Below, one piece after another: positions 5,603-45,700 of a stretch of DNA of 48,277 nucleotides. The position numbers and the translations under genes were made by a program. The first letter of the stretch is position 1, and the number at the start of each line of letters is the position of its first letter. The notes under the pieces were generated by a model. That model ran no database searches and had not been told where the DNA came from. It worked only from the letters and a program-made list of their open reading frames with translations. Source of the DNA: a virus; the IMG/VR virus record IMGVR_UViG_3300008110_000702, positions 1-48,277 of that record; one strand, 5' to 3'.

Positions 5603-5609
<7 letters not shown>
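3879..5609 (-). CDS. Distal part of collagen-like fibre protein, probably one gene with the preceding frame
   Basis: The frame is open from 5609 to the stop at 3879. The first conventional start is ATG-ATG at 5279 (466 aa), but clear coding extends upstream of it: [12 protein letters not shown], then collagen-like [13 protein letters not shown], then [19 protein letters not shown], with no ATG, GTG or TTG. This indicates that the gene is the continuation of 5603-7279, shifted by -1. Downstream residues show several fibre motifs: [13 protein letters not shown] and [15 protein letters not shown] (phage fibre strand repeats), and a long Gly-rich [12 protein letters not shown] / [11 protein letters not shown] / GGYVNIESG beta-roll-like array. 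It ends [10 protein letters not shown]. Inferred role: shaft and tip of a tail or capsid fibre. See the finding on the frameshift. Confidence 0.7.
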
Positions 5610-7279
<1,670 letters not shown>

Positions 7280-7281
7280 TA

Positions 7282-8085
7282 TTATGCTCCGCCGCCGTCT
7301 AACACAAGCTCGCCGGAAATATCGTCAAATGTTACAATGACATAATTAATTTTACCGGTATTTGTTCCGCTATGTTCATATTTAACCCTAGCCCAATTAT
7401 ACTTTCTGTTGTATGTGGGGAATTCGTAGGTCTTTGTAACTGTATCATTCATAGTTGTTACATTAAAAGTTTCGATAGTTTCCCAAGTAGTTCCGGCGCT
7501 TACGACTGCATCTTTGGTCCACTGTACAATAGCAGATCCTACTAGATTATCAAGGGAAAATTCCATAGTGAGGTATTCATCAACTTCTGCTTTTAAGAAA
7601 TTAGGTCTTGTTATCTCTACAGCATCACTGTAATAAGTAGTTGTTCCTAACAAGACATTTCCCATATCGGTATTGGTAATTCCGTAAAATCTTGTTATGT
7701 ATCTTGAAGGTATTTTTTCTGGGATTGTTGATCCTGCTTGAGGGAAAGCAGCTCCGACCAGCTCCATTAACCCTTCTGCGCCAAACTGTGTGTCAGCGTA
7801 CAGAACGGTACGAGTAGTGTCTGCATTCACTCGATATATAGTGAATTTTAAGAATTGCGGAGTAACACCTTTTAAAGCATCAGCAGTTATATTAACTGTT
7901 GCTAATCCTTGAGTTGTTAACGAATTTACCACATCTGCTGTAAGCAAAGCTGCTCCTTTGACGTCTGTAACAGACATTTTTATTGTCATTCCAGATAGAC
8001 TTATACGCTTTTGATCTGAATTTTTAACATCCAAGGTAAGTATATTATCAACACCTTTGTAAATTTTAATTTTATTTTGATACAC
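7282..8085 (-). CDS. Conserved-type virion protein, function unknown
   Basis: The frame opens at GTG 8115, but a second GTG at 8085 follows an AGGTGG Shine-Dalgarno by 6 nt and is preferred (267 aa, beginning with residues read as [19 protein letters not shown]). The product is beta-rich without membrane segments or recognised catalytic motifs, and ends LVLDGGGA. Those last codons also supply a GGCGGAG Shine-Dalgarno for the collagen-fibre gene, whose ATG comes two bases after the stop. As the first gene of the adhesin operon it may be a baseplate or fibre-attachment component; that is inference from context. Confidence 0.65.
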
Positions 8086-8143
8086 GATTTTCCACCTCAC
8101 AGGATATAAAGCCACATCTGCAACTAGATTGATTTTGTTTGGA

Positions 8144-8151
8144 TATAAATA
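8144..8151 (+). promoter_or_regulatory. Late promoter box TATAAATA
   Basis: A perfect match to the T4 late promoter octamer on the plus strand, in the divergent gap between 8085 and the plus-strand gene. It ends only two bases before the ATG at 8154, so transcription would be expected to begin at or just inside the coding region. Activity is inferred. Confidence 0.55.
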
Positions 8152-8153
8152 AC

Positions 8154-8508
8154 ATGAAATTTACCCTTTATCAGTGTACTTAACTACGGAGAAGAAGAGT
8201 ACGTTGGGATAATAATCAACCAAGATCAGCATGTTACCAGCTTCTACGACCTGGAAGCAGTGAAATCAAAGGAAGAAAAAACCCTGTTACTAGAACTGGG
8301 TGAAATTTGGTGGTGGGAAAGTAACCGTCAAGTTCCGATCAATATATTTTTAAGAAAAGATATTGAACCGTTTAGGTATATTATAAAAACGTTTAACAGC
8401 AAGGATGTAAGGATTATACTAGGGCCGGTAGTAAACCTTATGAATCTATCCTTGAAACGTATCAAAAGAAAAAGCGTACAACTAGTACGCCGACCGCCGT
8501 CTCGTTAA
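8154..8508 (+). CDS. Conserved-type small protein, N-terminus frameshifted
   Basis: From ATG 8154 the frame reads MKFTLYQCT and stops at 8181-8183. The next frame is open from 8158 and reads convincingly as protein (VLNYGEEEYVGIIINQ, FYDLEAVKSKEEK, GEIWWWESNRQVPINIFL, TFNSKDVRIILGPVVNL, ending VRRPPSR). One extra base between 8157 and 8180 would unite them as a protein of roughly 117 aa. A GTG at 8260 with GGAAG just before it could instead start an 82-aa product. The gene lies alone on the plus strand and its stop overlaps the stop of the converging DnaE-like gene by four bases. No domain recognised; function unknown. Confidence 0.6.
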
Positions 8509-17786: not shown

Positions 17787-19427
17787 TTATCTCATTCCGG
17801 CTAATTTTTTCATTCTTGTCATTTCGCCAATAGTCTGTAATTTAGCAATTACCTTTTCGGCAATTGGACCTGCACTATCGCCAAATTTCTTTTCGCAGGC
17901 AATTTTAACACCTTCTTCTCCTTTTGGAAAAGTGCCTTCTTCTGCATTGTACATACTCTTAACAAATTCAATTAACTCATCAGATTTGTTTCCAAATACA
18001 TCTTCAATCTTCATACCTGCCTTGGTAATAGCTTCGCCTAGTGTCATTTCTTTACCAGCAATGCGAATAATAGTTTCTGCTGTTGCACCAGCCTTCTTTG
18101 CCTTTTTAATAGCATCGGCCATTCCCTTTTTAGCCAAATGACGGGCTTTATGTTTAATAGTATTTCCAAACTGATCTTTATTATCGCTTGATTTTTTGTA
18201 AGGACCATCAAACGGAGGATCTTCTTTTTCTTCTGCAACTGGAGGTGTTGCTGGTGGTGTTGGTTCAGCAGCAGGGGCAGCAGGTGCTTCTGGAGCTGGG
18301 GCAGCAGTTGGTTCAGCAGGTGCTTCTGGTTCAGCCGGCATTTCGGGCTCAGTGGGTGTTTCTTCAAAATTAAGTTTGCTTAACACATCTGTGCCGTTTT
18401 CTTTGTCTTTTATTTCCACATAATCTTTAAGTATGTCTCGTACGTCTTGGTCTGGATTAATGTCTGCTAGTTCTTTTAGCACATCCATTAGATCATCGTC
18501 TTCAATAATTCCTGATAAGCTCTCAATGGCATTATTTCCATCTGTGCCAACAGGAAAAGGTTGTGATACTAATTGATTAAGTTTTTCAATAGCTTGATCT
18601 TGCTTCTCTTGATCATCACTGAATATGTCTGACGAACCCTCTACAATGCTGTTAAGGTATGATTCAAACTCGTTAAATTCTTTAACTTCTTTATGAGCGT
18701 TTTTATCTTCGTCTTCGTCTTCTTCGTCAATTAAATCTTCAATAGTTAAATTTTTAACTGGAACATCGCTTTCATCTATTAGTTTAAAAATATAAGGGAA
18801 TACATTTTTAAGTTCTTCGTTGAATGTACGGATAGTCAAACGATCAATCCAATCATTCATAATTTCTTCAGGTATTTCTTTTGCAGATGTCTCTTCAAAA
18901 TTTTCTGCAAATTGTTCGTAGTGATTAACATTTTGTAGACTAAAGATTTCTTTTTTAACTTGATCAATGCGCTCTAGAACTTTAAAATTTACTGAACTCA
19001 TTGCTTCGCTGACCATTGGATTACGTTCAACATAACCTTTAAACATACGTAGTTTGCCAAGTTCTTCACTTAAACTAGTAATGTGTTGACCCATTGAGTC
19101 ATAAGGTGTTCCGCCATGACAGATATGTTGAGCTAATGCTCTAGCACCATTTAAATGTTTGAAAGGATATTTAAATCTTTCACCTTGTGCATTTTCAATA
19201 TAGATGCTTTCTATTCGCTGTGTTCTACCAGCAGGATTTTCTAAATTAATAGGGGCACTGTGTTTTACAATAATTTTTGATTCGCCAAACTGTTGAAAAC
19301 TAGTTTTGCTTGTGCCATATAGTTTGCTTTCGGTCATGTTGCCGTCTCCGGATTTTTTGGATAAAAAGTCGTAAGATAATTGTAAGGCCGTCTTTATCTC
19401 CGTCCTCGTCTTCATCTTTTTCTGCAA
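17787..19427 (-). CDS. Large T4-like conserved protein, N-terminus disrupted
   Basis: The frame extends from 19427, but meaningful sequence begins near 19375 (SYDFLSKKSGDGN). ATG 19337 (MTESKLYGTSKTSFQQ), with GGAG eight bases before it, could start a 516-aa product. Segments ERFKYPFKHLNGARALAQHI and DWIDRLTIRTFNEELKNVFPY match a protein I recall from marine T4-like phages, always preceded by a domain like that encoded at 19300-19605. A low-complexity Pro/Ala/Glu linker lies about residues 355-400, followed by a basic helical C-terminus (KARHLAKKGMADAIKKAKKA). It follows the terminase gene. Function unknown; structural or packaging-associated is inferred. Confidence 0.7.
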   Translation of the reverse strand: MQKKMKTRTEIKTALQLSYDFLSKKSGDGNMTESKLYGTSKTSFQQFGESKIIVKHSAPINLENPAGRTQRIESIYIENAQGERFKYPFKHLNGARALAQHICHGGTPYDSMGQHITSLSEELGKLRMFKGYVERNPMVSEAMSSVNFKVLERIDQVKKEIFSLQNVNHYEQFAENFEETSAKEIPEEIMNDWIDRLTIRTFNEELKNVFPYIFKLIDESDVPVKNLTIEDLIDEEDEDEDKNAHKEVKEFNEFESYLNSIVEGSSDIFSDDQEKQDQAIEKLNQLVSQPFPVGTDGNNAIESLSGIIEDDDLMDVLKELADINPDQDVRDILKDYVEIKDKENGTDVLSKLNFEETPTEPEMPAEPEAPAEPTAAPAPEAPAAPAAEPTPPATPPVAEEKEDPPFDGPYKKSSDNKDQFGNTIKHKARHLAKKGMADAIKKAKKAGATAETIIRIAGKEMTLGEAITKAGMKIEDVFGNKSDELIEFVKSMYNAEEGTFPKGEEGVKIACEKKFGDSAGPIAEKVIAKLQTIGEMTRMKKLAGMR

Positions 19428-19605
19428 GATGGATTGTAATTCTTCCTAAATTTTGTCCATCAATTGCGTAGTCAAAATCAAAGAATCTAGCTTCTGATGG
19501 TTTGCCTGTGGTTTCGCTTTCTTTGTCCTTAAGGCTTATCTCTGGAAAAGAAGTACGAATTTTAGCAAATAGCTCTTTAGCAATTAAATTTAGATTTTTA
19601 TTCAT
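19300..19605 (-). pseudogene. Detached N-terminal piece of the 17787 gene
   Basis: From ATG 19605 the frame reads MNKNLNLIAKELFAKIRTSF, then ARFFDFDYAIDGQNLGRITI and an acidic AEKDEDEDGDKDG, and then loses sense and stops at 19300. In relatives as I remember them, this domain continues through a short strand and a LNFDTRDI-type helix into the DYxFLA ... SESK region of the following frame. About 45-50 residues appear to be missing at roughly 19371-19384, with a shift of frame. Start at GTG 19620 is possible but has no Shine-Dalgarno either. Either an internal deletion or an assembly error. Confidence 0.65.
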
Positions 19606-19610
19606 ATTCG

Positions 19611-19618
19611 TATTTATC
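19611..19618 (-). promoter_or_regulatory. Late promoter-like box GATAAATA
   Basis: On the minus strand GATAAATAC lies five bases before ATG 19605 and overlaps the stop codon of the terminase gene. No Shine-Dalgarno fits between, so a transcript from it would be leaderless. Confidence 0.4.
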
Positions 19619-20822
19619 ACATGTTTGTGGAAATAAAAATTGGCATTGGCATGTCAATGTCGTCATCGCTGACAAGATCACTGCTGTTAATAGTGGCATA
19701 AACCCGCTGATCCCAATCTCCTAGTACTTGACTCATTCTAACTAACAATAAACATGCACTTACTAGATCGTCTTGTTCATCATTTTTAGCTTTAAAACTT
19801 ACTCCATGTGCAATAAAAGTTTTAAGCTCTGAAATCAACGGCCTACTGTAAATAGCCATCTTATTAGTTTCTATTAGATGTTTTAATCTAGCAGCAGCAG
19901 CAATTTTTGACCCGTGCGTAGTGTTAAATCCTTTGCGGAACTTACGCACATGGCCTTTTCTTACAGGTTCGCTAACAAATAGTCCTGGAAAGTTTTCTTC
20001 TCCAATATCTTTTATGCAGACTAATCCTGCTTCACCAACTGTGTTATTTTCTATAGTCCAATAGATGCTGTTAGGATTATCGTCGCCCATGAAATCATTA
20101 ATGTATCTTAATATTTCTCGTAATATTTTAATCTGCCCTTGTATAGGCGTAAGATTGTGTTGCCACTCTGCTACTTGAGTAAAGCTAGGTAATTCAAACA
20201 CTTCTATAGCAGCATTGTTGCCTCCTGTACCTAAACTAGGATCTAATGTAATAGCATAGATACTTTCTTTGTTTAATTTTTTATACCAGCGTGTCTGACC
20301 TACACGTTGAATTGGCTCCATACCTTCTAGTTCTGATAGTTTAATGCTGTTAACTAGTGTTTCGTCGTAGATTAAGAATTCACAGTTATATTCTCGACGG
20401 AATCGTTCTTCACCAATACGGCCTCGTTCAGCAGTTTCCCAGGCAGAATCTCTATCTGGATGCTCGCTCCATTTACAGGTAAAAGGAAAAAATCCATTTA
20501 TACCTACTTCTTGTTCATTGCCAAATTCGTCAAACTTCTTGTTGGCTTCTTTCCATATAATAGCAAACGTGTCTTCGTCACTGTTAGGTGTTGACGTGAT
20601 AATTGCTTTACCGCCTGTGGCTAGTGTAGGTGATATGGATGTCCAGAATTCATCAGCGATATTGGGGGGAACAAATGCAAACTCATCACAGTATAGTAAG
20701 GAGATAGACATACCGCGGCCTGTATTGCCAGTAGTAGTTGTAGAGACAATGCGTGATCCGTTATCAAATTCAATACTCCCTTTGTTATAGTTGTTTGATC
20801 GGGATGAAACATAGCATACCAT
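19617..20822 (-). CDS. 17: Terminase large subunit gp17, C-terminal part (ATPase Walker B and nuclease)
   Basis: The frame opens at 20822, but homology begins near 20797 with YNKGSIEFDNGSRIV. It contains TGRGMSISLLYCDEFAFVPP (Walker B with the catalytic acidic pair, then coupling motif TSTPNSDED), and the RNase-H-like nuclease domain with acidic residues in TLDPSLGTGG, WTIENNTVGEAG and NDEQDDLVSACLL. gp17 pumps DNA into the prohead and cuts the concatemer. The first residues of this frame (MVCYVSSRSNN) are the Walker A region read out of frame. As given, no intact terminase can be made. Family assignment is secure. Confidence 0.9.
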   Translation of the reverse strand: MVCYVSSRSNNYNKGSIEFDNGSRIVSTTTTGNTGRGMSISLLYCDEFAFVPPNIADEFWTSISPTLATGGKAIITSTPNSDEDTFAIIWKEANKKFDEFGNEQEVGINGFFPFTCKWSEHPDRDSAWETAERGRIGEERFRREYNCEFLIYDETLVNSIKLSELEGMEPIQRVGQTRWYKKLNKESIYAITLDPSLGTGGNNAAIEVFELPSFTQVAEWQHNLTPIQGQIKILREILRYINDFMGDDNPNSIYWTIENNTVGEAGLVCIKDIGEENFPGLFVSEPVRKGHVRKFRKGFNTTHGSKIAAAARLKHLIETNKMAIYSRPLISELKTFIAHGVSFKAKNDEQDDLVSACLLLVRMSQVLGDWDQRVYATINSSDLVSDDDIDMPMPIFISTNM

Positions 20823-21106
20823 AAAAGATATCCTGCGGCACAGGTAGTTTTGCCCATTTGTCGAGGTAACATGTTGATGTTAAATCGATGTCCATGGTAT
20901 GCGTCTAATAATCTAGTTTGGAACTCAAAAGGTTCAAACAGCAATTTACCTTTTACAGGATGCTGTATATAAAAAAACTTTTGGCAGAAATAATGATATC
21001 CGTCTTCAAGACTACAGGCCAGCAGATCTTCAATTTGCTGCTCTGTAAATGATTCTTTGGTGTGAGCCTTTTTAGTTAAGACTCCATCTAATGATTTTGA
21101 TGGCAT
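20621..21106 (-). pseudogene. 17: Terminase large subunit gp17, N-terminal part, frameshifted
   Basis: Starting at ATG 21106 (MPSKSLDGVLTKKAHTKESF), real homology runs to about residue 106: QKFFYIQHPVKGKLLFEPFE, then Walker A MLPRQMGKTT (79-88) and AAGYLLWYAMFHPDQT. After about 20790 the frame turns into nonsense. Compared with T4 gp17, where roughly 36 residues separate the equivalent of FHPDQT from NKGSIELDNGS, that segment is absent here and the frame changes. The piece follows a strong terminator, and GTAAATAA, a weak late-type box, lies six bases before its ATG. Confidence 0.85.
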
Positions 21107-28500: not shown

Positions 28501-28970
28501 GATGAAGTAACTGCTGCGCCATTCCACTCAAAAACGCCAAATGCTGTAACACTAGTATCTAACCAGTGTGTTCCTGGGATAGGATTAGCAATTGGAGCTT
28601 CTGCTGAAGCATTTAGTTCATCTAAATCAATATTAGCTCTAACAACATAAGCACGATTACTTACGCCTAACAAACTGTAAGCAGCCTGTAGACCGTATTC
28701 GTTCTGTTCACCTGCGTGAATCGGATTGTTATTAGAATCTGTCTTGAACGATGGATCGCCAAAAGTATCTACAAGATCCTTCTGACTGGTTATTAAATAT
28801 ACTTGGCCGGCGTTGGCCTTTAAGGTACCTGGAGCTGTTCCGTCTCCTGCACCGTTAGTTTTATTTTCTGCTGAAGCAACGACAATTAAAGGTACGGTGC
28901 CAGGCTCAGCTGGTGTATAAAACGATTCGTCAACAACTTTGACTTCTACGCCTGGTGAAGTTAATGCCAT
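25563..28970 (-). CDS. 18: Contractile tail sheath protein gp18, enlarged
   Basis: 1135 aa compared with 659 in T4. The N-terminus (MALTSPGVEVKVVDESFYTP, VPLIVVASAENK) and C-terminal third (FNLMACPGYPELIGELISLN, PSHMMLRTIALNDQVAYPWF, APAGLRRGGITNATAVGYVD, INPITFFTGSGLVNYGQRT, and the ending VEFIYIPLRLKNTGEIAGL) are the conserved sheath parts. Between about residues 130 and 720 lie inserted beta-rich modules with repeated W-G-D and ETGDLWIDTSDIENYPTIY-type motifs like those in phage fibre proteins. The sheath contracts to drive the tube through the envelope. It has AGGAG at its start, and CTAAATAA, a possible late box, about 30 nt upstream. Confidence 0.94.
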   Translation of the reverse strand: MALTSPGVEVKVVDESFYTPAEPGTVPLIVVASAENKTNGAGDGTAPGTLKANAGQVYLITSQKDLVDTFGDPSFKTDSNNNPIHAGEQNEYGLQAAYSLLGVSNRAYVVRANIDLDELNASAEAPIANPIPGTHWLDTSVTAFGVFEWNGAAVTSSGGQTFTNKIPLVVTDPNKVDPLTGAPNTKAGGQIGDYAFVAVRDANDNRPALTSLHPNTLYYKNRSGAWVLVGSNQWQASWPTVAGTKAASTLTANNVIEINGESILVPVGPNNTLAKLVDAINANPILGGSGVTASVVNNKLEIYHNGESGDVGDDSNLVEIGAASTAGLLTTLGIAGGDYYNPRLTISKHTQVPTFKRKDTYPRPTGSVWLKTTESNLGARWRFKRWNGQTLLWDSITTPLYSNGHEAIASLDKTGGGANIALGTVYVQYNYQEHDDTADSTPRVAEFKAWRRAAIGATVVRSAKIITGMFTSGEDYVFNMAESLVGDAVIDADKVNQFTAAGDSSDAETIATVINANGYVNITAEVDSQNRLVIKHNKGGEIRFTNGLNTPLNPLGFSTAYQYEPSEANFGEGTEWIQTAPVGQTASGYVASNWVPLVYISSADNPGSLAEDGTLWYSSVVDEVDIMIHDGDKWVGYKSPTSPYFAEGTDPAGPMVAATAPEKQSDGSALETGDLWIDTSDIENYPTIYKYDSDLLNKPVKDRWVLVDKTDQSTDEGILFADARQGTDGGTADNAPTGTIEELLTSNFVDFDCPDPALYPKGMLLWNLRRSGFNVKKFKQSYIDTTADNTRFNAPVGESMQAYYTHRWVTESANNPDGSGSFGRQAQRKVVVQALQALVNSNQQIRDEESRVFNLMACPGYPELIGELISLNYDRGLTAFVVGDTPARLTPDATSLNRWGTNQRLALEDNDLGAVSYDEYMAMFYPWGFTSDNFGNNVVVPPSHMMLRTIALNDQVAYPWFAPAGLRRGGITNATAVGYVDAEGEFRSVALNNGQRDTLYESKINPITFFTGSGLVNYGQRTRAKAASALDRINVARLVIYLRRQLNALAKPYVFEPNDKITRDEIKGAVDSLMLELVGQRALYDYLVVCDESNNTPARIDRNELWVDVAVEPVKAVEFIYIPLRLKNTGEIAGL

Positions 28971-29079
28971 ATTAAACTCTCCTATGGGGTTTCATTATAC
29001 TTTTATTTAGCGGTTTTTTCTAAAATGGACCCGTAATACACCTATGAAAAGGGGTTAAAAAGGTGAGCATAAATACAGT
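28971..29079. promoter_or_regulatory. Divergent regulatory gap between gp18 and the HNH-like gene
   Basis: 109 bp. The minus strand has CTAAATAA near 29002-29010 and TAGGAGAG before gp18. The plus strand has CATAAATA at 29068-29075, four bases before ATG 29080. Both boxes resemble T4 late promoters. No other structure seen. Confidence 0.45.
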
Positions 29080-30467: not shown

Positions 30468-31229
30468 TTAACCTATTACAAATGTATAACCAGTTCCGCC
30501 ACTGATTAGAGTTTCTAGTTCTTTGTCTAATTTTTCTAATTCTTCTTTGCTGGCAGATTTAAGATCGGCACCATTTAACTGCGTTCCTCCTTGAGGTCCA
30601 GCAATAGTTCCAAATTTGCTACGTGCTTCTCCTAATATACCTTTACAAATAGCTAGAGTATAATCTTTAATCCACTGTCCTGCATAGATGTCATTAATAA
30701 GATTAAAATCTGGTCTGTAATTATAGCATCTTAACAGTAATGTTTCTTTTTCAGTAAACGGTCTTTGTAGAATACGTAATGTATGCGAATACGGAATCCA
30801 CTGAAATTCAATGTAGCTACCAAACATACGTCCTACCATTTCTTGATATTGTGCAAAGAAATCATATGTAGCAATACCACCAAGTGTTGTTGCATTTAAC
30901 AAATATGTATTAGTATAGGCTAAATTAAATGGCTCAAAATTAGTGCCTGTGCCTACAGATCTACTTCCTAGCGATCGTCTAAACACTGATCTTACTTCAA
31001 CAATTTCGTCAGGAAGTTTGTAATCATTAGTATCTCTTTCTAACTCAATAAACATGTAGCTTTCTTCAACCGCATTTGGGCTGCGCTGTCTAAATCTAGA
31101 TAGCGTTTTATTAAGAGCTGCTTCGTAGTGTATAGGGTCAAGTTCAACGTCAATCATCCCGTCGCCTAGCATGGCGCGAACATAGTCGTAAACTTTCTGT
31201 TTTTCAGCTTGAACATTAATTTCTAACAT
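30468..31229 (-). CDS. 13: Neck protein gp13
   Basis: A 253-aa protein (T4 gp13 is 309 aa). The N-terminal VRAMLGDGMIDVELDPIHYE followed by a helix, and the C-terminal WIKDYTLAICKGILGEARSK, then GPQGGTQLNGADL and a final GYTFVIG, line up with the start and end of T4 gp13 (its WVKDYATALAKE ... GGVTIDGQRL ... FGILVG). gp13 caps the head after packaging and, with gp14, joins it to the tail. A GATAAATA box and a GGGAG Shine-Dalgarno precede it; gp14 diverges from the same 39-bp gap. Confidence 0.8.
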   Translation of the reverse strand: MLEINVQAEKQKVYDYVRAMLGDGMIDVELDPIHYEAALNKTLSRFRQRSPNAVEESYMFIELERDTNDYKLPDEIVEVRSVFRRSLGSRSVGTGTNFEPFNLAYTNTYLLNATTLGGIATYDFFAQYQEMVGRMFGSYIEFQWIPYSHTLRILQRPFTEKETLLLRCYNYRPDFNLINDIYAGQWIKDYTLAICKGILGEARSKFGTIAGPQGGTQLNGADLKSASKEELEKLDKELETLISGGTGYTFVIG

Positions 31230-31244
31230 TGGTGTCTCCCAGTA

Positions 31245-31261
31245 TATTTATCGAATAAATA
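31245..31261. promoter_or_regulatory. Back-to-back late promoter-like boxes between gp13 and gp14
   Basis: Minus-strand GATAAATA (31245-31252) faces gp13, 15 nt before its ATG. Plus-strand AATAAATACTG (31254-31261 for the octamer) faces gp14, seven nt before its ATG. Divergent boxes one base apart suggest simultaneous late expression of the two neck proteins. Confidence 0.5.
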
Positions 31262-31268
31262 CTGTACT

Positions 31269-32873
31269 ATGCCACGTTTATCACTTTACCGTCCCGAAAA
31301 GGGCAACGACTCATCTGAGATGTTTCAGGTTGGCGGAACAGACGTTTACGTTCACAAATACATGGGTCCATCCCTAGTAGCTAACGGTACTGCTGATCAA
31401 CCCACTATTGATTCGTACAATGTTAAAAACATACAAGATCTACTGTTTTTAGAAAATCGAGATAGAAAGTATGATCCTAGCATTTATAGAATACGAGGCG
31501 TTTATAACGTACAAGATCTTGACTTTAATTTAAGTCAGTTTGGTTTATTTCTCGATAACGACACATTGTACATGACCATACATATCAACGATTTTGTTAA
31601 TACTGTTGGCCGCAAACCTATTAGCGGAGATGTATTAGAAATTCCGCATCTCAAAGATGAGTTTGCTCTTAACGATTTAGATGTAAGTCTACCTAGATAC
31701 TATGTTATCAGTGATGTAGGCCGAGCTGCTGAAGGATTTAGTCCAACATGGTATCCTCATTTATACAGATTAAAATTAACTAAAATCAGTGACAGTCAAC
31801 AGTATAAAGAAATTTTTGATCAGAAGATTGTTGATCCAGTAACTGGTGAAGAAACTAATAATACGTTGCGTGAGTTGTTAAGTACTCAACAAAAAGTATT
31901 AGACATAAACGATCAATTAATTGCTCAAGCAGAAGCAGACGCTCCCAAGAGCGGTTACGAAACTCGACATCTGTACACATTAGCAGTTGATGCATCTGGT
32001 CACGCTGCACTAGAGTCAGTTGACGATACTAGTTTTCCTCCAGACTCGTCATCTACTAACATTGATGCTAGTAGAGTTTTAAAGAGACCAAAGCGCAGCG
32101 GCTACCAAGGTTACCTAGTTGGTGACGGAGTTCCAGAGAACGGTGTTGACTTTGGGCACGGAATACAATTTCCCAATAATCCCTATGACGGTGATTTCTT
32201 CTTAAGAACTGATTTTTTACCTAACAGATTATTTCGATATGATGGAGCTCGATGGGTCAGAAGAGAAGACGATGTACGCATGACAATGACTAACACTGAC
32301 ACTAGAAGTACACTCAAAGGAACATTTATTAACAATAGTAATAAAGTTGGAGTTGGATTTATTGCCAGCGATGTTTATAGAGTTGAAGAATTTAAAGTTA
32401 CAGCATCTATAGCTACTGTAGGAACTGATCTTGTTCTTACTGTAAGTTACATGCCGCCAGGTAAGATTATTAAAACAGGGTATGTGTTTAATTTACCAAA
32501 AATTCCCACTGATGCAAATGTCTATAATAGTGTAGAAATTGAATCTATATTGTCAGGTTCGGGAGGCATTGGCACTTATAAATTGGTAAGTACAACGGGC
32601 ATAACCACTGTATCTAACAGACAAATTACACTTATAGGATTTAAACAACATCTCCTTACTCAAACTTATGTAGCAGGTATGTTTGCCAATGTTAATTTTG
32701 GTGACAGTCTTGTTCCGTCAGTAACTGCTAGTTCAGGAACTGGCGGTAAAGTGTTGTTGACATTTAGTGAAGCAGCACCAACTGATTATGAAATAGAATG
32801 GCAGCTATATTCTGGTTCAACAAACGAAAGAGTGGCTATTAGCAAGGCTCTTAAACCAAAGGCTGATTTATAA
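31269..32873 (+). CDS. 14: Neck protein gp14, enlarged
   Basis: A 534-aa protein, twice T4 gp14 (256 aa). Residues 1-195 are the gp14 core: MPRLSLYRPEKGNDSSEMFQ, VYVHKYMGP, LSQFGLFLDNDTLYMTIHIN, ISGDVLEIPHLKDEFALND and LYRLKLTKISDSQQYKEIFD. The rest is an extension with a fibre-like NPYDGDFFLRTDFLPNRLFR / YDGARWVRRED module and a beta-rich end. gp14 is part of the head-tail connector. It starts the plus-strand neck operon and its stop overlaps the gp15 ATG by one base. Confidence 0.78.
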   Translation: MPRLSLYRPEKGNDSSEMFQVGGTDVYVHKYMGPSLVANGTADQPTIDSYNVKNIQDLLFLENRDRKYDPSIYRIRGVYNVQDLDFNLSQFGLFLDNDTLYMTIHINDFVNTVGRKPISGDVLEIPHLKDEFALNDLDVSLPRYYVISDVGRAAEGFSPTWYPHLYRLKLTKISDSQQYKEIFDQKIVDPVTGEETNNTLRELLSTQQKVLDINDQLIAQAEADAPKSGYETRHLYTLAVDASGHAALESVDDTSFPPDSSSTNIDASRVLKRPKRSGYQGYLVGDGVPENGVDFGHGIQFPNNPYDGDFFLRTDFLPNRLFRYDGARWVRREDDVRMTMTNTDTRSTLKGTFINNSNKVGVGFIASDVYRVEEFKVTASIATVGTDLVLTVSYMPPGKIIKTGYVFNLPKIPTDANVYNSVEIESILSGSGGIGTYKLVSTTGITTVSNRQITLIGFKQHLLTQTYVAGMFANVNFGDSLVPSVTASSGTGGKVLLTFSEAAPTDYEIEWQLYSGSTNERVAISKALKPKADL

Positions 32874-34889: not shown

Positions 34890-37800
34890 TTAAGCGTAAG
34901 TAGCAGATACTGTGACCCACTGGGTTGCAGTCATACAGATAAATTCTAATGTTCCGCCTGTTGTGATTGTAAATCCTACGTTACTGCCTGCTGAATTTAT
35001 CTGAGCACCAATGTTTGGATAAACAGTAAGGTTATTAACACCACCGTTTCGTATAACAATTCGATGTCCAGTTTGCCAGAAAGGAAGTATTACACCTGAA
35101 CTTACAGGCGTTGTTGTAACGTTGTTTACGTCAGCAGTAATAGCCAATGCTGTTCCTTGATTGCTGCCTGTTGCAGTTAGTCCTGTTGCCGTACTAAATG
35201 CTAGGAAATCACCATACTTTCTACGACCTGCCTTGTAGACTCTAGTGTATCTCCAACCGCTAATAAAACTACGTCTTGTTCCAGATGTAAATGAGTAGTT
35301 AAATAATGCCATTGGGCTAAAATATTTTGTATTAGCTGCAAACTGTCCTACGGCTGTACCAAAGCCTGTGATATATCCTGTATACTTGGTCCAAGTAGTA
35401 GACGCGGCAGTATTACTCATTACCCAGTAACCAAAGCTACCCGGGTTACCTCCAAGACTTGTTCCAGATGCGCTGATGTCAACTGACCCCATATAGTGTC
35501 CCGGCCCTACATATCCAGGATCGTTACGCAGCCATACTTCACAATAAAATATGTCGTTAGTATCAACTGGAATTAATGGAAATCCTGAACCGTAGGCAAT
35601 AGATGCCACACTAGGATTACTGTCAATCTGAATACAATATCCGCCTGGCGCAGTAGTGTCTGCGTTCCAAGTCACGTTTGAAGTATTAAAGAAATTTTGT
35701 AATTCAGTCTGCGTCCATGTTGGATCAATTTCAAATACACATTCGCCTGGACTATAGTGTCCCATTGGATGTCTTTCTGATGTTTGAAAACGTGCATTAG
35801 TTCTTACTAGACCGTTGGCATGTTGACTATATCCGCCAACATACAGATTTTCTACAATGCCTACACCGCCGGCCACAACTATTGCTCCGGTGCTAGTACT
35901 TGACGACCCTTGATTAAACAATACAGATAGTCTACCACCAGCGCCACTACCTACGTTAATAGTTCCGGTTGATATTCCAGTAAATAAGTTTACAGTACCT
36001 GTGGTCACGTTAGTGGCTAGCGATGCTGTACCTGTAGTTCCGTTACCTCGTATGTTTACAGTTGCATTACCACCAGTGCCACCTACGTTAACTGTAGCAG
36101 CATTACCGCCTAGGATAATAGTTGATCCACCGCCAGTACCAAAGTTAATTGTTCCTGTAGTTATACTTGTCCATTGATTAACAGTACCTGTGGTCACGTT
36201 AGTTGCCAGTGTTGCAGTACCTGAAACTCCGTTACCGCTGACGTTCAATGTTGCATCACCGTTGGTTGCTCCAACTCTAACCTGGCCGCCAACACCACCA
36301 AGGTTAATTACACTCGAACTTGATCCAACACCAACGTTGACAGTACCTGTAGTTAGTCCAGCAAACATATTAACTGTACCAGTGGTTAAGTCTGTAGTAA
36401 AGTTGATAGCGCCAGATCCGTCTGCTGGACTTCTTACTCTAAATACGTTTCCTGTAATCTGTGCGCCAAGTGAGGCAGTTACCAGTGAAGTACTACTTAA
36501 TCCAAAATTAACTGTTTGAGCATTTAATGATATTGTACCCAGTGCACCTGCAACACTACTGCCAAGACTAATATTAGTTATACTATTTGAAATACCGTTT
36601 TGTCCAATTTCTATAGTTTTAGTTGTAGCATTAGTTGTAGCACCAGAACCAAATCTATAAGTACTTGCGCCCGTACTGCTGTTACCTATGTTAATAGTCT
36701 GTGCAGCCGTAGCTGATGATCCTACTGAAATAGCAGTAGCATTAGAACCATAGTTTATAGTACCAGTTACTGATGTAAATTCGTCAACTTGGCCTGTGGT
36801 CACATTAGTAGTAAGCGTAGCAGTACCGCCTGTGCCGTTGGCTAGTATTGACAATATGTTATTACTAGTATTGGCACCAATGTTAACTGTGGCTGCGGCA
36901 CTCTGGTGTCCAATGGCTGCTGTAGCTATACCAGGAAATACAACAGTGGCATTAAGCACATCGCTGCCGTTAATTTTAACAGCTTTACCTGATACTAAAT
37001 TAATATTTTCACTTGACGACCATGCTAGTACGCCAGCAGTATTATCATACTGCCATGTTTTATTAGCTGTACCAAGGACTGTGATACCACCACCATTAGC
37101 ACTGGCATCTGTAGCACCGCTTGAACTAAATGTAGCTGGCCCAGCAGTCTGATGATTAACGGTCATGGTAACCTGTGTAAGGCTGTCGATGCTTTGAATA
37201 ACAGCACCTGCGCCAAATGCTCCAGTGCCTGAAGTTACTGTAAAAGTCTGTCCTGGAATTAATCCAACTGTAGATCCGCTGGTAATAGTAACTGTGGCAA
37301 TTCCTGTTGCTAGTGTTGCCTGTAAACCTGTTACTGCTACAACGCTGGCTAATTCAATATTCTTATCGTCAACTTGTACTATGCTTGAATTAAAAGTTGT
37401 TGTTGTACCATTAACTGTTAAATTACCGTTAACTGTTAAATTATTTGGAATTGTGACTAAACCTTGGTTACTGATAGAAAGCACGTCTGCCATTGTATTG
37501 GCAGCAGGTCCTGATGAACCTGGAAGTGCAGTTCTAAATACGATAAGTCCTGATCCGCCTGTTCCTGTTCCATTACCTGCGGTAATGATAGTGTCGGCAC
37601 CAATTTGGTTAGTTCCTACGGCCGAACCTGATCTAAATGTTGCAACGCCGCCAGTGCCTGAAGTTGTTGCATTTCCGCCTTGGAATATTGCTGTACCGCC
37701 TGCGCCACTAGTTGAACCACCACTGCCGCCTTGTACTGTAAGAGCTATACCTGGACTGCCAGCGCCTGTTGCGCCTGGACGTACAGTCATTGTACTGTTA

Positions 37801-39761
37801 GACTGTGTTGTTATAGTTGTAGCTGTGGCATTAGCACCTATTGTGATTGTGCTAGCGTTTGCTCTAAATGCTTGAACTGCTGCTGAGCCCGAAGTCATTG
37901 TTCTTAATACAAGGTCAAATGTTTCTGCGCCGGCGGCAATTCCAGTAGAAAGTATTTCAATAGCTGCGCCAGTGGCATTTGTTCCGCCAGCGTTTTCAGC
38001 TATAAACTGAATACCTGTGCCCATACCTGCAGCAGCAGTTCCTGAAGTTGTATGTCTAACTTTTAACGGATAGCTTATGCTGGCATTTGATGCATCATCA
38101 ATGCTAACTGTTAATGTATTTGGTGCTGTTATTGTATCTGAATTAAATGTAACAGCATCTGCACTAGCATCGCCTATGGTAGTAGTTCCGTTGACTAATA
38201 GATTACCCCTGACGGTGACGTTACTGCTTGTACCGCCCATAGAAATAGCAGCAGCTTGTCCAAAATTAATTGTAGTAATGTTAGCATTAAAAATACTAGC
38301 AGTACCTGTATTAGAACTAGCGATAGCAGGATTGGCGCCGTTCATATTGAACGTTGTACCGTTAGTCATTGTTATAGTTGGATTAGCAACAGTTACAGTA
38401 CCAGTGCTAGTTCCAATGTTAATAGAAGTACCGGCGCCAAACGCATTAATTGTTGATGCGTTTGCGTTGAATACACTAGCTGTTCCAGCATTGGTAGTAA
38501 TAGTACCTGTGCCACCTGTGCTGTTGCCTCGAATAGTCAAAATACTGTCGCCACCAGTTGTACCAATATTGACTAGGCCAGCTGCACCACCAATGTTTGT
38601 TGTACTTGCACCGCCTGTGGCAATGTTTACTGTACCTGTGGTAATACCAGTATAGGCATTAACAATGCCTGTAGTCACATCACTGGTTAAATTAATAGTT
38701 CCACTAGCAACAGAATTAATTTCAAATATATTACCAGTAGCAGCTGGACCAAATGTTAATGTACTTGCGGCAGCGGCACTGGTAGCAATGTTAACGCCAG
38801 TAGCAACTCCAAAAGCATTAACCGTAGTGCTTTGAGTATTCCAAAGGTTTACTGTGGTTTGTGTACCAACAACAGTGGGATTGCCTATAGTTAATGTACC
38901 ACTGTTGGCGCCAACAGCAATAGTTGTTCCAGCCCCAAATAGGTTACCAGTAGTTGATACAGTATTAAAAACGTTAGCGGTGGTAACACCGTTGTTAGTA
39001 TTAATTGTAGCCGTACCAGTTGTAGCATTACCGCTGACTGTTAAAGTGGCGTTACCTGTATTAGATCCAATAACTAACGTGGCAGCGCCCGAACCAACGT
39101 TAGTTGTACTTGCGCCACCTGTGGCAATATTTACAGTACCAGTTGTAATGCCAGTGTATAAATTTAAAGTACCTGTGGTAAGATCTGATGTGATATTAAC
39201 TGCACCACTAGCTGTGCTTGATATTTTAAAAGTATTATTGGTCACAGCAGGACCAACGGTAACGGTTACTGCTCCAGCAGCACTTGTGCCTGCGTTAATA
39301 CCTGTGGCTACACCTGCAAAATTTACAGTAGTAGCATTGGTGTTTAATAAATTAAATGTTGTTTGACTAGTAGTAAGGTCACCACCGTTAACTGCTAGGT
39401 CTCCTGTGACCACAGTATTAGCATTGTTTATTGTAGCAGTACCAGTAGCTGCACCAATACTTACAGTTGTTGCGGCGCCACCTACATTTAATGTCGTTGC
39501 ATTAGCATTAAAAAGTGTAGCTGTACCAGTTGCTGATGTTGTAATGTCTGCGCCATTAACTGCTAAATCTCCAGTTATTGTTGCTCCACCGCCTACAGAT
39601 AAATCAGTACCTACAAACGCTTTTTTAGCTACTGCTACACCACCTGCTGTGTATACAGATGCGTTAGTGTCTGTTGAACTTGACGCATCTGTTGAACTTA
39701 ATACTTGTGCCTCTTCCGTCACTACGAGGCCGTTCTTTACGACGAAATCTATTGTTGCCAT
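34890..39761 (-). CDS. Giant repetitive tail fibre/adhesin (1623 aa)
   Basis: N-terminus MATIDFVVKNGLVVTEEAQV then VGTDLSVGGGATITGDLAVN. Residues about 70-1330 are built of many degenerate Thr/Asn/Gly/Ala repeats with core phrases such as DVTTGTVNLFTGI, TGTVNIATGGASTTNIGG and STTVNAFG, predicted to form an elongated beta-roll or beta-helix. The C-terminal 290 residues are non-repetitive (YSPGECVFEIDPTWTQTELQ, YCEVWLRNDPGYVGPGHYMG, and ending LEFICMTATQWVTVSATYA) and probably a jelly-roll-type tip domain. A GGAG Shine-Dalgarno precedes ATG 39761 and an AATAAATA box is upstream. Role in host attachment inferred. Long open frames on the opposite strand are composition artefacts. Confidence 0.8.
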   Translation of the reverse strand: MATIDFVVKNGLVVTEEAQVLSSTDASSSTDTNASVYTAGGVAVAKKAFVGTDLSVGGGATITGDLAVNGADITTSATGTATLFNANATTLNVGGAATTVSIGAATGTATINNANTVVTGDLAVNGGDLTTSQTTFNLLNTNATTVNFAGVATGINAGTSAAGAVTVTVGPAVTNNTFKISSTASGAVNITSDLTTGTLNLYTGITTGTVNIATGGASTTNVGSGAATLVIGSNTGNATLTVSGNATTGTATINTNNGVTTANVFNTVSTTGNLFGAGTTIAVGANSGTLTIGNPTVVGTQTTVNLWNTQSTTVNAFGVATGVNIATSAAAASTLTFGPAATGNIFEINSVASGTINLTSDVTTGIVNAYTGITTGTVNIATGGASTTNIGGAAGLVNIGTTGGDSILTIRGNSTGGTGTITTNAGTASVFNANASTINAFGAGTSINIGTSTGTVTVANPTITMTNGTTFNMNGANPAIASSNTGTASIFNANITTINFGQAAAISMGGTSSNVTVRGNLLVNGTTTIGDASADAVTFNSDTITAPNTLTVSIDDASNASISYPLKVRHTTSGTAAAGMGTGIQFIAENAGGTNATGAAIEILSTGIAAGAETFDLVLRTMTSGSAAVQAFRANASTITIGANATATTITTQSNSTMTVRPGATGAGSPGIALTVQGGSGGSTSGAGGTAIFQGGNATTSGTGGVATFRSGSAVGTNQIGADTIITAGNGTGTGGSGLIVFRTALPGSSGPAANTMADVLSISNQGLVTIPNNLTVNGNLTVNGTTTTFNSSIVQVDDKNIELASVVAVTGLQATLATGIATVTITSGSTVGLIPGQTFTVTSGTGAFGAGAVIQSIDSLTQVTMTVNHQTAGPATFSSSGATDASANGGGITVLGTANKTWQYDNTAGVLAWSSSENINLVSGKAVKINGSDVLNATVVFPGIATAAIGHQSAAATVNIGANTSNNILSILANGTGGTATLTTNVTTGQVDEFTSVTGTINYGSNATAISVGSSATAAQTINIGNSSTGASTYRFGSGATTNATTKTIEIGQNGISNSITNISLGSSVAGALGTISLNAQTVNFGLSSTSLVTASLGAQITGNVFRVRSPADGSGAINFTTDLTTGTVNMFAGLTTGTVNVGVGSSSSVINLGGVGGQVRVGATNGDATLNVSGNGVSGTATLATNVTTGTVNQWTSITTGTINFGTGGGSTIILGGNAATVNVGGTGGNATVNIRGNGTTGTASLATNVTTGTVNLFTGISTGTINVGSGAGGRLSVLFNQGSSSTSTGAIVVAGGVGIVENLYVGGYSQHANGLVRTNARFQTSERHPMGHYSPGECVFEIDPTWTQTELQNFFNTSNVTWNADTTAPGGYCIQIDSNPSVASIAYGSGFPLIPVDTNDIFYCEVWLRNDPGYVGPGHYMGSVDISASGTSLGGNPGSFGYWVMSNTAASTTWTKYTGYITGFGTAVGQFAANTKYFSPMALFNYSFTSGTRRSFISGWRYTRVYKAGRRKYGDFLAFSTATGLTATGSNQGTALAITADVNNVTTTPVSSGVILPFWQTGHRIVIRNGGVNNLTVYPNIGAQINSAGSNVGFTITTGGTLEFICMTATQWVTVSATYA
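35840..39740 (-). repeat. Degenerate tandem repeats in fibre gene
   Basis: Repeated coding modules, each containing a TTGTVN-type phrase and a following GGxxTVNIG phrase, succeed each other with variable spacing. Matching modules are found near 39900-40500 in the next fibre gene and at 47900-48277 in the third, which shows a shared repeat family. Borders are approximate. Confidence 0.7.
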
Positions 39762-39788
39762 TTGGTTTCACTCTCCACCATTATGTTG

Positions 39789-39796
39789 TATTTATT
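39789..39796 (-). promoter_or_regulatory. Late promoter-like box AATAAATA
   Basis: On the minus strand AATAAATACAAC sits across the stop codon of the 2609-aa fibre gene, 27 nt before ATG 39761, with GGTGGAG between. Match 7 of 8 to the T4 late box. Confidence 0.45.
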
Positions 39797-42700
39797 AGAC
39801 GGTATTTAAATGTCTTACCACCCTTACTTTAACAGTATTACCTGTTGTTGCCTGCGCACGTAGTTCAACGTTTGCACCGTTAATAGTTGCAGTAAATGTA
39901 ACTAAATTATTTCCAGTTCTTATCACAGCATAGTCTGTAATAGTTGCAGTAGTACCGTCGTGTAATATTAATATTTCACTGGTCTGATATTGGTTAACAT
40001 CTGTACCAGCGGTACAAGTCACTGTGAGAGTGTACTTGCCGCTTCTAAAAGTCGCTAATGCAAATGTATCAACTGCTACGGCACTTACACTAGTAACGCC
40101 GGTCGTTTCGCTTGAGCTTATATAATTCTGATTGTTAATATTAACTGTACCAAATCTAATTGTGCTAGTTGTTGCACCAATATTAATTGTACCTGTCACA
40201 CCAGTATATAGATTTACAGTACCTGTAGTTACATCAGTTGTATGATTAATAGTTCCAGATGTTGTTCCAGATAGTTTAATTGTATTACCTGTAACTGCAC
40301 CACCAAATGTCAATGTACTTGCGCCAGCTGTTGCGTTAGTAGCAACATTGATAGTTCGGGCGCCCGTGCCGCTGTTAGCAAGTGTTAATGTAGTTGCTGA
40401 AGCAAACGCTGCGACCGAAGTTGCGTTGTTATTAAACACGTTTGCTGTCGTCATAGCAGTTTCTAAATTTAAACTAGTTGCTGTACTAGATTCAGCAAGT
40501 GTCATTCTTGTTACAACAGTTTGTGTGGTATCGCCAGTTGAGCCAGTTGTGCCGCTTTGGAAGTTAATTACACCGCCTGTAGCGTTACCTGTACTCAACC
40601 CCGGACGAACTGTAAATGCTGCACCTGCAATATTTGTTCCAACCCCGTTTTCGCCTTTGATTACCGCAGACACAGGTGTTGCGCTAGCTTCACTTGAACC
40701 AATAGTCACATTGCGATTTCTGATTACCAATGTAGATTCTCTTACAACAGTACCTGCTTTAGTCAAGTTCGCTGCTGTAACACTTCCATTAGTTTTAATT
40801 GTAAATGTAGCTGAAGCTGCTCCTGCACTAGTTACTGGCCAAGTACCAATAAGGTCTGGAACTCCAGCACCAGCAAGAGTAATTTGATCTCCTACTTTAA
40901 TTCCTAAACTTGTATTAGTATCTGTGAATACTATTGATGTACTTGCAGTTATTGTGCCTGTTGTTGCTGCACTTAAATAAACAGTTGTTCCATTTACGCC
41001 AGTTACTGTTGTACTACCAGGAATATTTGCGCTGCCTTGTACTAACATACCGGCACGTACACCAGTAGTTGCTGCAAATACCAATGCAGTTGCTCCAGAC
41101 GTAACTGTTGTTGTTAGTGCCAATGCAGTTGCTCCAACATATACACTTCCAGAACTTAATGTTGTGAGCAATGTAGAACCAGTATTGCTGTAAGTAAATG
41201 TAGTAAGTCCAGTAACAGTTGCACTTATATTTCTTGCATCAAATGTAGAATCTGATCCGCAGACTACTGTAACTGTGTCGCCTGTGGTCAATCCATGATT
41301 AGCAGTGGTTGTAATAGTTGCCACGTTGGAACCATTTCTAGCAATTGAACCAATAGTTAATGTTAGGCCAACATTGACAGTTACGCTAGTAGTTGATGAT
41401 CCGCCTGTGGTATAGCTCTTAACATTTGTAGTAAGACTTTCGCTGGCAGAATTTGAACCAATACTTACACTAGTAGCATCGCCGCCAGCATTAAGTACTT
41501 TAGATCCTGTGTTAAAAACTGCGGCAGCACTAGTGCTAGTAGTTGTAACATATGGGCCTGTTAACGATATACTTCTAGCAAGTGTGAGTCCTGTGCTCCA
41601 CTGTGGGGCTGTACCTGAACTGGTCATTACACTATCACTAATACCAATATTCAAAGTGTTAAATGTTGTCGTACCAGAAGCAAACACAGTATCGCCAACT
41701 GCATAACTTCCTATTCCTGTACCGCCACGATTTACAGGTACTGAACTAGTTAAGTTTGCTGGGTTTAAGAAGTAGGAACTATCTAAATTATCTAGTGTAC
41801 CAGCATCAACTACTCCAGATTTAATATAAACTTCACCTGCATTGATAGCATCTCCAGTACCAACTGCAAACTGAGATAGATTAAATGATGCGGCACCTAA
41901 CGATGAATAACCACCAGCACCACCAGTCTTATCAGCTTTAATAATATCAACTGTGACTGCACCATAGAATGGACTTGAGCCGGACCCTAATATAGTAATT
42001 GGGCTCAGCGCAGCAGCCGCAACACTTTTAACCGCAGTGGCCCAAGTTGAATCACCGCGTAAGAATGTATCAGTATTTGCAGTACCGGATGCAAGGCGTG
42101 ATGGGCTAATAATACCAGAAATAATATTACTTGCATCAATGTTGCTAGAAACCAATGAGTTCCAGTTATTTCTATCTGTGCTTGATGTATTAACTGTACC
42201 AGTTACTTGAACATTTTGTTTGACAAAAGTAAGTGTTCCAGATCCAGCGCCGTCGATGTTTGTAGAATTTGTTACGTTGCCGTTGACACTTAATAGTGCG
42301 TCGGCTCGTAGTTCGTGTAATGTAAAACTATTTGTAGTTACAGATCCAACAAAGAAGCGTGTTTGATCTGGAATTGCTACTGCGCTGACTGTAGGCATAT
42401 TTAAACTTGTTACACGAACAGCATCACCAGTGATTAAACTGTGTGCGGCTGCATAAATTGAATTATCTGTAAGATTTATTGCATATCTTGTTAGGGTATG
42501 TGTACCAGTTGATGACGCTCCAAATGGAGCAGCAGTCACTGATCCTACATTAAATGTACTACATAATTGAATAGTATCAACGCCAATTACCTTAACGTAA
42601 TACACGTTACCAGTTACTAGTCCGCCCATTGATGGGTTAACTCCAGGACTGTATGTCACAGGATCTCCACTGCTAAATCCGTGTCCAACTAATGTAATTT

Positions 42701-45700
42701 CGTTGGTAAGATAATTTACATCTCCTCCAGAACCTGTAGGCAATGCGTTAAATGAAAACACTGTGCTGTTAGTAGAAGTTATGCTAAATTTAGTAGCGTT
42801 ATTTTCTTCAATAAAGTCAGGAGCAGTTGGTGTAGCAACAAACAACTGACCGCCTGTTATTCTTAAATAGGCACGTCGTTCAACAGCGGTTGTAGTAATT
42901 TGAAAACCTGATCCACTGCCTCCCAAATTTGCATTGTTAGCAGATAAATTGCTACCAGCTACATAGCCTGTGCCACCAAAGACTAAATCTATATCAGTGA
43001 CAGCGCCTGTGGCACTTACAGTAAGATCTGCTAGTGCTCCTGAACCAGAACCCGTTACATTTGTCAGCGGTACTCGTCGATAAATTCCAGCTACATAACC
43101 CGAACCCGGAACTAGTGTAAGACTGTTGACCGCAGTAAGAACACCAGCTCGTAGTTCTTGTACTTCACCTTGACTTAATGAGTCAGCGGCAGTGGCCACT
43201 GATTTTACAGTTCCTGATTCTGTAGCAGGAGTAAAGAATGACAACGTAGCAGTATTTGTGCTGGCAACTGTGCTATTACTTGGGAATGTAACTGTAAACG
43301 TTCTTGGATCAACTGCCATGTTCACTGTGGTAATTTTGCTACCTTTTGGAATTGTGCCGCTGGCATCAAATACATAATCTCCCACAGTAATTGTTCCTGT
43401 TAGAGAAGCAGCCGGAACACTACCGGTCATGGTGCCAGCACTTGCTGCACCGTCTAATGTTGCTGTGGCAGTTGTAGTAGCAGACGCAGTAGATGATGCA
43501 GTAATCTGCGGGTAGTAAAATTCAGTAGATGATGTTACTGTAACAAATGGTGATGCATCATAGGCTGCTGAAACAGCATTAACACGAACTTGGTTACCTG
43601 TAACAGCACTATGTGAACCAGTAGTTGTGATATATGCATAGTTGTTATAAACAAATGCTTTGCTGATTGTTGCCAAAGTAAATGTCACTGAGCCAGTATT
43701 AGGAATAATCAAATATTGACTAGTTGTAGCATTTCTTAAAAAGTAGTTAGGACTTTGAGAAGTTTTAGTAGCAAGTGTTGGATACGCTCCAGTTGCAGTT
43801 GATGCAATAGTCAGTGTATTTCCAGCACCGGTTGTAAAATTAACTGTAAAATCTTCGTAGATGCTGGCAACAATAATTGTAGTGGCGCTGCTAGCATAGT
43901 CGCCTTTTAGGTATCCTGTTGCTCCTGACACTGCTTGAACTACTAGAGATCCGTCAGTAAATGCAGTACCAAGGCTACCACTCAAATTTAATTCAAATTG
44001 ATGGAAATTTTCAGTTGCAATATCACCCGCCTGCATGTCGCTTGCAGGAACATTGTCTACCTGTGTTAATCTTGATCCATATCCTGGAGAAATAAAACTT
44101 GTAAAGTTTCTTTGTGTCGGAATAAGATCACTGTTGATCTGACCATTACTGTTTAATTGAACAATTGAGCCTGGAATAGCGGCTGTGGTCACAGTCTTGT
44201 CAATAAATGAACCTAGTCTATTATTAGCATAACTCCACATTGCTAACTGTGTGCTTAATCTAGCATCACTAGGGCCGCCAACTTCGTTTTCACCTAGGTC
44301 AACGTCTGTAGAAATTCCAGTAATTTCAATATTACTCAATGCTAGTCGCAACACATCGAGTGTGTCAACTGTAACTTTATTACGGAAAGTAATATTACCA
44401 GTTCTGTTAAACGCTGTAATAAAGTCACCAACTTTAAAGTCACCTAATTCGTTAGTGCCAGATGAGTAAACTCGACCAGCATTTTCTCTATATTGCTCAT
44501 ATCTACTTTGAGTTTGTCCACCGTTCTGTGGTAGAGCGTTATAGTCTATACCAGAACCTGCATATTCCCAAGTATGTCCTGAACTGTTGGTAATACTAGG
44601 ACGGTGGAAGTGAACTTTCTTTCCAGGTAATGTTCCTGTTCCAGTAAATGCTCCACCTGTGACTGTTGGTATAACACTAAACCTTGATCCATATAAATCA
44701 AATCTACGTGATGCTGATGTAAGTGCTATGCTTACAACTGTTGCATTAATTTTTGTAATTGATCCTGTACTTAAGAAAACGTTTCTTACAGACGCACTGT
44801 TAATAGTAACTTCATTGACACAGACAGTTAATGTATAAGTGGCTGCATCATAGCTATAAACATAGGCAGCATTTGGAAGTCCGTTGCTTACACCTTCTAG
44901 AACGTCACTGGCTGTAAATGAATATACGCCTGGTGTAAGAACAATATCTTGGAAAACATTGTGTGAATCTAATCTTTCGTTGACTACTACTTGGTAATCT
45001 TGTTTACGGAATTTGTGTGTTCCTGAACTCACAGAAAGAATTCTTACATTTCGTGACAGACTATCATCATAGCAGAGAGTAAAACTGTTAGCATCAATAT
45101 ATTTTACAAAATAAGTATCACCATTAAACAATCCACCAATGTCAGTATTTCCTTCACTGCTGTAGATTATTTCTGCACCGTTAAGAAATCCATGCGTGTT
45201 AATAGTAAATATACCGCCAGAGGGTGCTTGACCAGTTGTCACAGCAGTGGCTGCATTAAATGACACTTCAAGGAATGCTGGTAGTGTAGTTTTATAACTG
45301 TCTGTTAGGTCTGTACCAATGCCGTTAAGGCTTGCATATGTGCTGACCTGTGTTTTAACTGTTGCGGTGTTAGTTACTAGCGTATTATTTTTAACAATTA
45401 AGTCACCGTCAGAAACCCAAACTGTGCTAGGTGCGATATCGGCAACAGGTATTCCTGTATTAATTGTATCATAGATATCTTGTATTCTATCTTGAGCAAA
45501 CACAGCGGCACCGCTAGAACCAGCAGTACCACTGATGTCTTGTGTTTGACCATTGCCTGCTGAAGGTGTAATGCTTACAGCTTGTGCAACATCATCAACA
45601 ATAGATTTAAGATAAGCATAGGCTGCTAGTATAGCTGTTTTTTGCGATCCTGATAATGTAAATCCAACGGAATTTCTTCCTGCTACCACCGACTCAAGGT

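Follow-up and report, generated by a model that had tools for sequence, protein, structure and literature searches.

The window, by which we mean the whole stretch of DNA that was analysed, is the 48,277-base virus record IMGVR_UViG_3300008110_000702 of IMG/VR, and it carries a T4-type large terminase in two frames of the minus strand (Table 1). The frame of the N-terminal piece starts at 21106 (-), passes through MLPRQMGKTT, which we take to be the Walker A motif, and stops matching at FHPDQT. The next conserved segment, NYNKGSIEFDNGS, lies in the frame of 20822..19617 (-) and comes directly after FHPDQT of the other frame. This arrangement, the starting point of the original prediction, was confirmed in the translations and by profile matches. 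Both pieces match PHROGs families of the terminase large subunit, with E values for phrog_36964 of 7.3e-97 (C-terminal piece) and 1.8e-11 (N-terminal piece). Pfam Terminase_6N matches the C-terminal piece (E 7e-08), and a Pfam profile search with the N-terminal piece by itself gave no match. No match to the gene was found at the DNA level in the phage collection.

The PHROGs matches of both pieces and the Walker A letters in the translation place the gene with T4-type gp17 (Pfam Terminase_6N; phrog_36964, phrog_2). The difference from that family is that the window copy lacks 103 nt and with them a single continuous frame, which we read as a probable loss during assembly.

Table 1. Terminase pieces, junctions with missing bases and strain-shared exact tracts in the window
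Feature	Position	Strand	Remarks
N-terminal piece, T4-type large terminase	20794..21106	-	Up to FHPDQT, with Walker A; edge approximate
C-terminal piece, large terminase	19617..20793	-	From about NYNKGSIEFDNGS, other frame; edge approximate
Terminase junction	20785..20793	.	103 nt missing versus G001/L002; 8 nt ambiguous; abuts end of exact tract 20641-20793
Exact tract, window and strain-B contig G002	20641..20793	.	153 nt; read as a probable graph node common to the strains
Second junction	19374	.	146 nt missing versus G003, G004 and 3300042691_006553; in G001 the loss here is 162 nt
Shared exact tract by second junction	19261..19374	.	Window length 111-114 nt; 118 nt at most in contigs uncut there
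Third junction	8162	.	64 nt missing versus G004; at end of shared tract 8062-8162
Fourth junction	5609	.	229 nt missing versus G004; cuts short ORF 5603..7279 (-); frame continuous in G004
Fifth site	31311	.	21 nt (7 codons, in frame) missing versus G001, 3300008448_000412 and 3300031857_007980; end of shared tract 31198-31311
Exact-identity tracts between strains	8062-8162, 19261-19374, 20641-20793, 28926-29039, 31198-31311, 39697-39810		101-153 nt in the window

The intact gene in the same phage and in relatives

A second contig of the same phage, L002, which is part of IMGVR_UViG_3300008108_000304 (G001), holds one open terminase gene of 530 residues across the break site. Its DNA is 99.7-100% identical to the window over about 11 kb, and at the protein level the N-terminal piece (105 residues) and residues 2-392 of the C-terminal piece are each 100% identical to the intact gene. 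The product of this gene matches Terminase_6N with E 2.8e-18 over profile positions 3-205 of 215. An intact copy of the same genome is thereby available in another assembly, and in it 34 residues stand between the equivalents of the two pieces. The missing 103 nt amount to those 34 residues plus one base and, as had been foreseen, are not a multiple of three. The predicted extent of the loss, some 36 residues or 108 nt, was close to what we measured, if slightly too large; the break had been placed near 20788-20797 and was found a few bases lower, within the interval of ambiguity given in Table 1.

A search with the C-terminal piece returned 353 relatives, and the spacing of the two halves was measured in the best 80 of these. 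In 72 of the 80, L002 included, the halves are spaced by exactly 102 nt in the measure used. Two others among the best 80, L004 and L064, have differing deletions at the same place, and the remaining six possess the C-terminal half only, their contigs starting at C-piece residues 2-26. No insert was present at the break site in any of the 74 relatives of the best 80 that have both halves. Judging from these sequence comparisons, we have very little doubt that the terminase of the real phage would prove to be an intact T4-type large terminase.

Missing stretches and tracts shared between strains

The terminase junction is one of several in the window (Table 1). For each of the four further missing stretches, at 19374, 8162, 5609 and 31311, one or more of the phage's other contigs have the sequence. 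Losses of 48-285 nt, at these positions or elsewhere, also occur in other contigs of the phage and in contigs of a second strain. The loss at 19374 divides the gene that follows the terminase, at 17787-19620 (-), between two frames; the larger piece of this gene matches phrog_13484, a virion structural protein in PHROGs. The shared tract that ends at 8162 is 114 nt long in G004, where the tract end falls 13 nt inside the missing stretch. No known strain-shared tract lies beside the 5609 junction among the contigs compared. In G004 the frame of the ORF at 5603-7279 (-) extends beyond 5609 into a collagen-like G-X-Y stretch. The window also has two very long ORFs, at 34890-39761 and 39795-47624 (-), of 1623 and 2609 codons.

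The second strain, which we call strain B, is 84-86% identical to the window phage overall, and its contig G002 is 83-89% identical to the window, segment by segment. Both strains co-occur in metagenome 3300008267, since each has contigs from it (L104 for one strain; L092, L180 and L106 for the other). Against this divergence the two strains have in common tracts of exact identity (Table 1), which are perhaps natural recombination tracts that were turned into assembly nodes. For the tract at 20641-20793, a conserved DNA element was considered and rejected: synonymous codon identity near the tract is ordinary, the best interval there giving z = 1.43 among 68 other intact relatives and values elsewhere in the gene reaching 1.75.

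The positions of the deletions were compared with the ends of these tracts. Contig-pair events were collapsed by hand to a set of 19 deletions with a threshold of 30 nt, which leaves the 21-nt loss at 31311 outside the set. Six strain-shared tracts are 114 nt or longer, and 12, 15 and 16 of the 19 deletions lie no farther than 5, 15 and 30 nt, respectively, from one of their ends; the chance means for 19 deletions are 0.11, 0.31 and 0.57, with maxima of 3, 3 and 5 in 5000. All six long tracts have at least one deletion adjoining. Five shorter tracts, of 63-89 nt, were compared as well: a deletion lies up to 30 nt from the end of just one of them, and no deletion comes within 15 nt of any. Without collapsing, 37 of 50 contig-pair events are no more than 12 nt away from one or other end of a tract of 70 nt or longer (against 1.46 on average by chance, with a maximum of 6 in 2000); two of 52 rows had been dropped from this count for a large negative gap that arose from internal repeats, and the pairs have contigs in common and so are not independent. 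Three of the 19 deletions lie away from the long shared tracts of the contigs compared, namely those at window 5609, G003 26873 and G003 37736; the deletion at G003 26873 is within 30 nt of the end of a 63-nt tract. Two of the twelve tract ends, those at 28926 and 39810, are not independent of assembly breaks, because strain-B contigs end there.

The lengths of the tracts carry a signature of their own. Among 120 exact matches of at least 60 nt between contigs of the two strains, a count in which each tract is entered once per contig pair, 39 are exactly 114 nt long, the commonest length. Twenty-six of these 39 reach to the end of a contig or fetched piece; the other 13 do not, some of them being cut off by a deletion instead of ending naturally. 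Five contigs, drawn from both strains, all begin at base 28926, and at 39810 two strain-B contigs stop after the first 114 nt of a shared tract. L064, whose terminase gene is about 77% identical to that of the window, is broken where an exact match of 114 nt with another relative, L054, begins. L059, which is the same as L064 at that place, has 119 nt in common with L054, and the deletion edge of L064 is therefore 114 nt from the other end of the tract. The same 114-nt offset recurs at the edge of G003 at 20754, in the tract 20641-20793.

Such a pile-up at 114 nt would be expected of a de Bruijn graph built with k = 115; both the assembler and the value of k are our reconstruction. A setting of IDBA-UD with mink 65, maxk 115 and step 10 is in print, in a passage of PMC8204110, and we infer that such a setting was used in these projects. 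Among the papers searched, none was found for five IMG metagenome numbers.

Alternative explanations

We considered whether the two pieces could yield a functional terminase by some unrecognized expression route, such as a split intein, frameshifting, bypassing or a piece supplied in trans. In support of this idea, split terminases do occur in known relatives. The large terminase of Atu_ph07 is divided between gp110 and gp109 (L098 2530-4721) and SCTP-2 gp534 (L097 3498-3890) is an N-terminal piece alone; all are annotated just as terminase, and the C-terminal half of the SCTP-2 terminase was not found in 7 kb around gp534. These genes are like the window copy in having the terminase coding sequence in two pieces. 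They differ from it in the place of the split, which is the Walker A lysine, some 19 residues upstream of the window break, and in having N-piece tails that, from this lysine on, appear intein-like when read by eye. In the window the Walker A motif is whole, nothing resembling an intein was seen by eye in the pieces or at their ends (the profile searches being those of PHROGs and Pfam), and the two would-be exteins are not jointly complete, since 34 residues are absent with respect to L002; the residues missing from the window are encoded in Atu_ph07 by the second gene. The intein treated in the relevant part of PMC6892783 is that of a DNA polymerase, not of a terminase. An intein, intron or split gene at the break was rejected, the known split lying elsewhere, at the Walker A lysine with its intein-like tails. 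The plain spacing of the halves in 72 of the best 80 of 353 relatives, the same phage among them, also speaks against such a route, as do the intact gene in that phage and the occurrence of similar losses mostly beside strain-shared tracts. We regard this explanation, one of three offered by the original prediction, as having a vanishingly small probability, and it is not needed.

A defective genome had been offered as another cause. The intact form might have been displaced in the assembly by defective genomes with a real deletion, from a subpopulation that is non-viable or dependent on a helper; the flanks of the break match the intact copy in the same phage exactly or nearly so, as they would after a recent deletion. 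Set against this is the number of separate losses, five in a single 48-kb contig, with each lost stretch present in another contig; similar losses affect other genes and other contigs, and the edges lie mostly at the ends of strain-shared tracts. In addition, the three junction sequences tested (20793, 19374 and 5609) have no exact match among other entries in viral_contigs, a collection that may omit the window's own record. With the gene intact in another contig of the same phage, we consider a real deletion very unlikely. Recurrent biological deletions at hot spots, for example at homing-endonuclease cut sites with conversion tracts alongside, would account for the recurrence of the same edge bases across several contigs of both strains, and for tracts that are locally identical although the strains have diverged. 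Yet the tract lengths pile up at 114 nt and contigs end at the same bases, both of which fit k-mer graphs; moreover, the 74 relatives with both halves (among the best 80 of 353) have no insert at the site, and the synonymous conservation of the tract is ordinary. Hot spots therefore seem to us highly improbable. The same slight chance attaches to the wider proposal that short deletions of lethal appearance are numerous in the population, at fixed sites by gene-conversion tracts (nuclease scars, for instance), with its defective genomes complemented by intact siblings.

A proposed route to the break

The interpretation that we favour, and hold to be almost certainly correct on the strength of the contig comparisons, is that the terminase break would be an artefact of metagenome assembly in which about 100 bases were dropped. 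Assembly collapse had been among the causes first proposed, and it is strongly supported by the intact contig of the same phage, by the deletion edges at the ends of shared tracts and by the 114-nt matches. Because most of the deletions adjoin shared tracts and 114 nt is the commonest match length, we propose that the strains were merged at shared nodes and that neighbouring bases were lost on joining.

The sequence of events might be as follows. Phage strains that are about 85% identical would have been present in the same samples (in 3300008267 by contig names; for the window's own sample this is presumed). Wherever the strains had 114 nt or more of exact sequence in common, a de Bruijn graph with k near 115, both graph and k being postulated, would fuse them into one node, and contigs would stop at such merged nodes. 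When pieces were then joined, a step that we also postulate, the bases beside the node could be lost, in keeping with the losses of 48-285 nt that we see. One such loss inside the terminase gene would produce the apparent deletion of 34 residues and the change of frame.

The collapse of strain mixtures is a general kind of error in de Bruijn metagenome assemblies. The present case resembles it in its contig ends and small losses at strain-shared exact tracts, and in no tested feature does it differ, with the particular assembler and the joining step supplied by our model.

With regard to the gene itself the finding is ordinary, and there is no new biology in it. Its value is of another kind. 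When an essential gene looks broken in a phage assembled from a metagenome, contigs can suffice, without recourse to reads, to recognize a probable assembly error: those of the phage in other assemblies are compared, and exact strain-shared tracts of length k-1 are sought at the break. Falsely 'fractured' genes in other IMG/VR records could be caught in this way.
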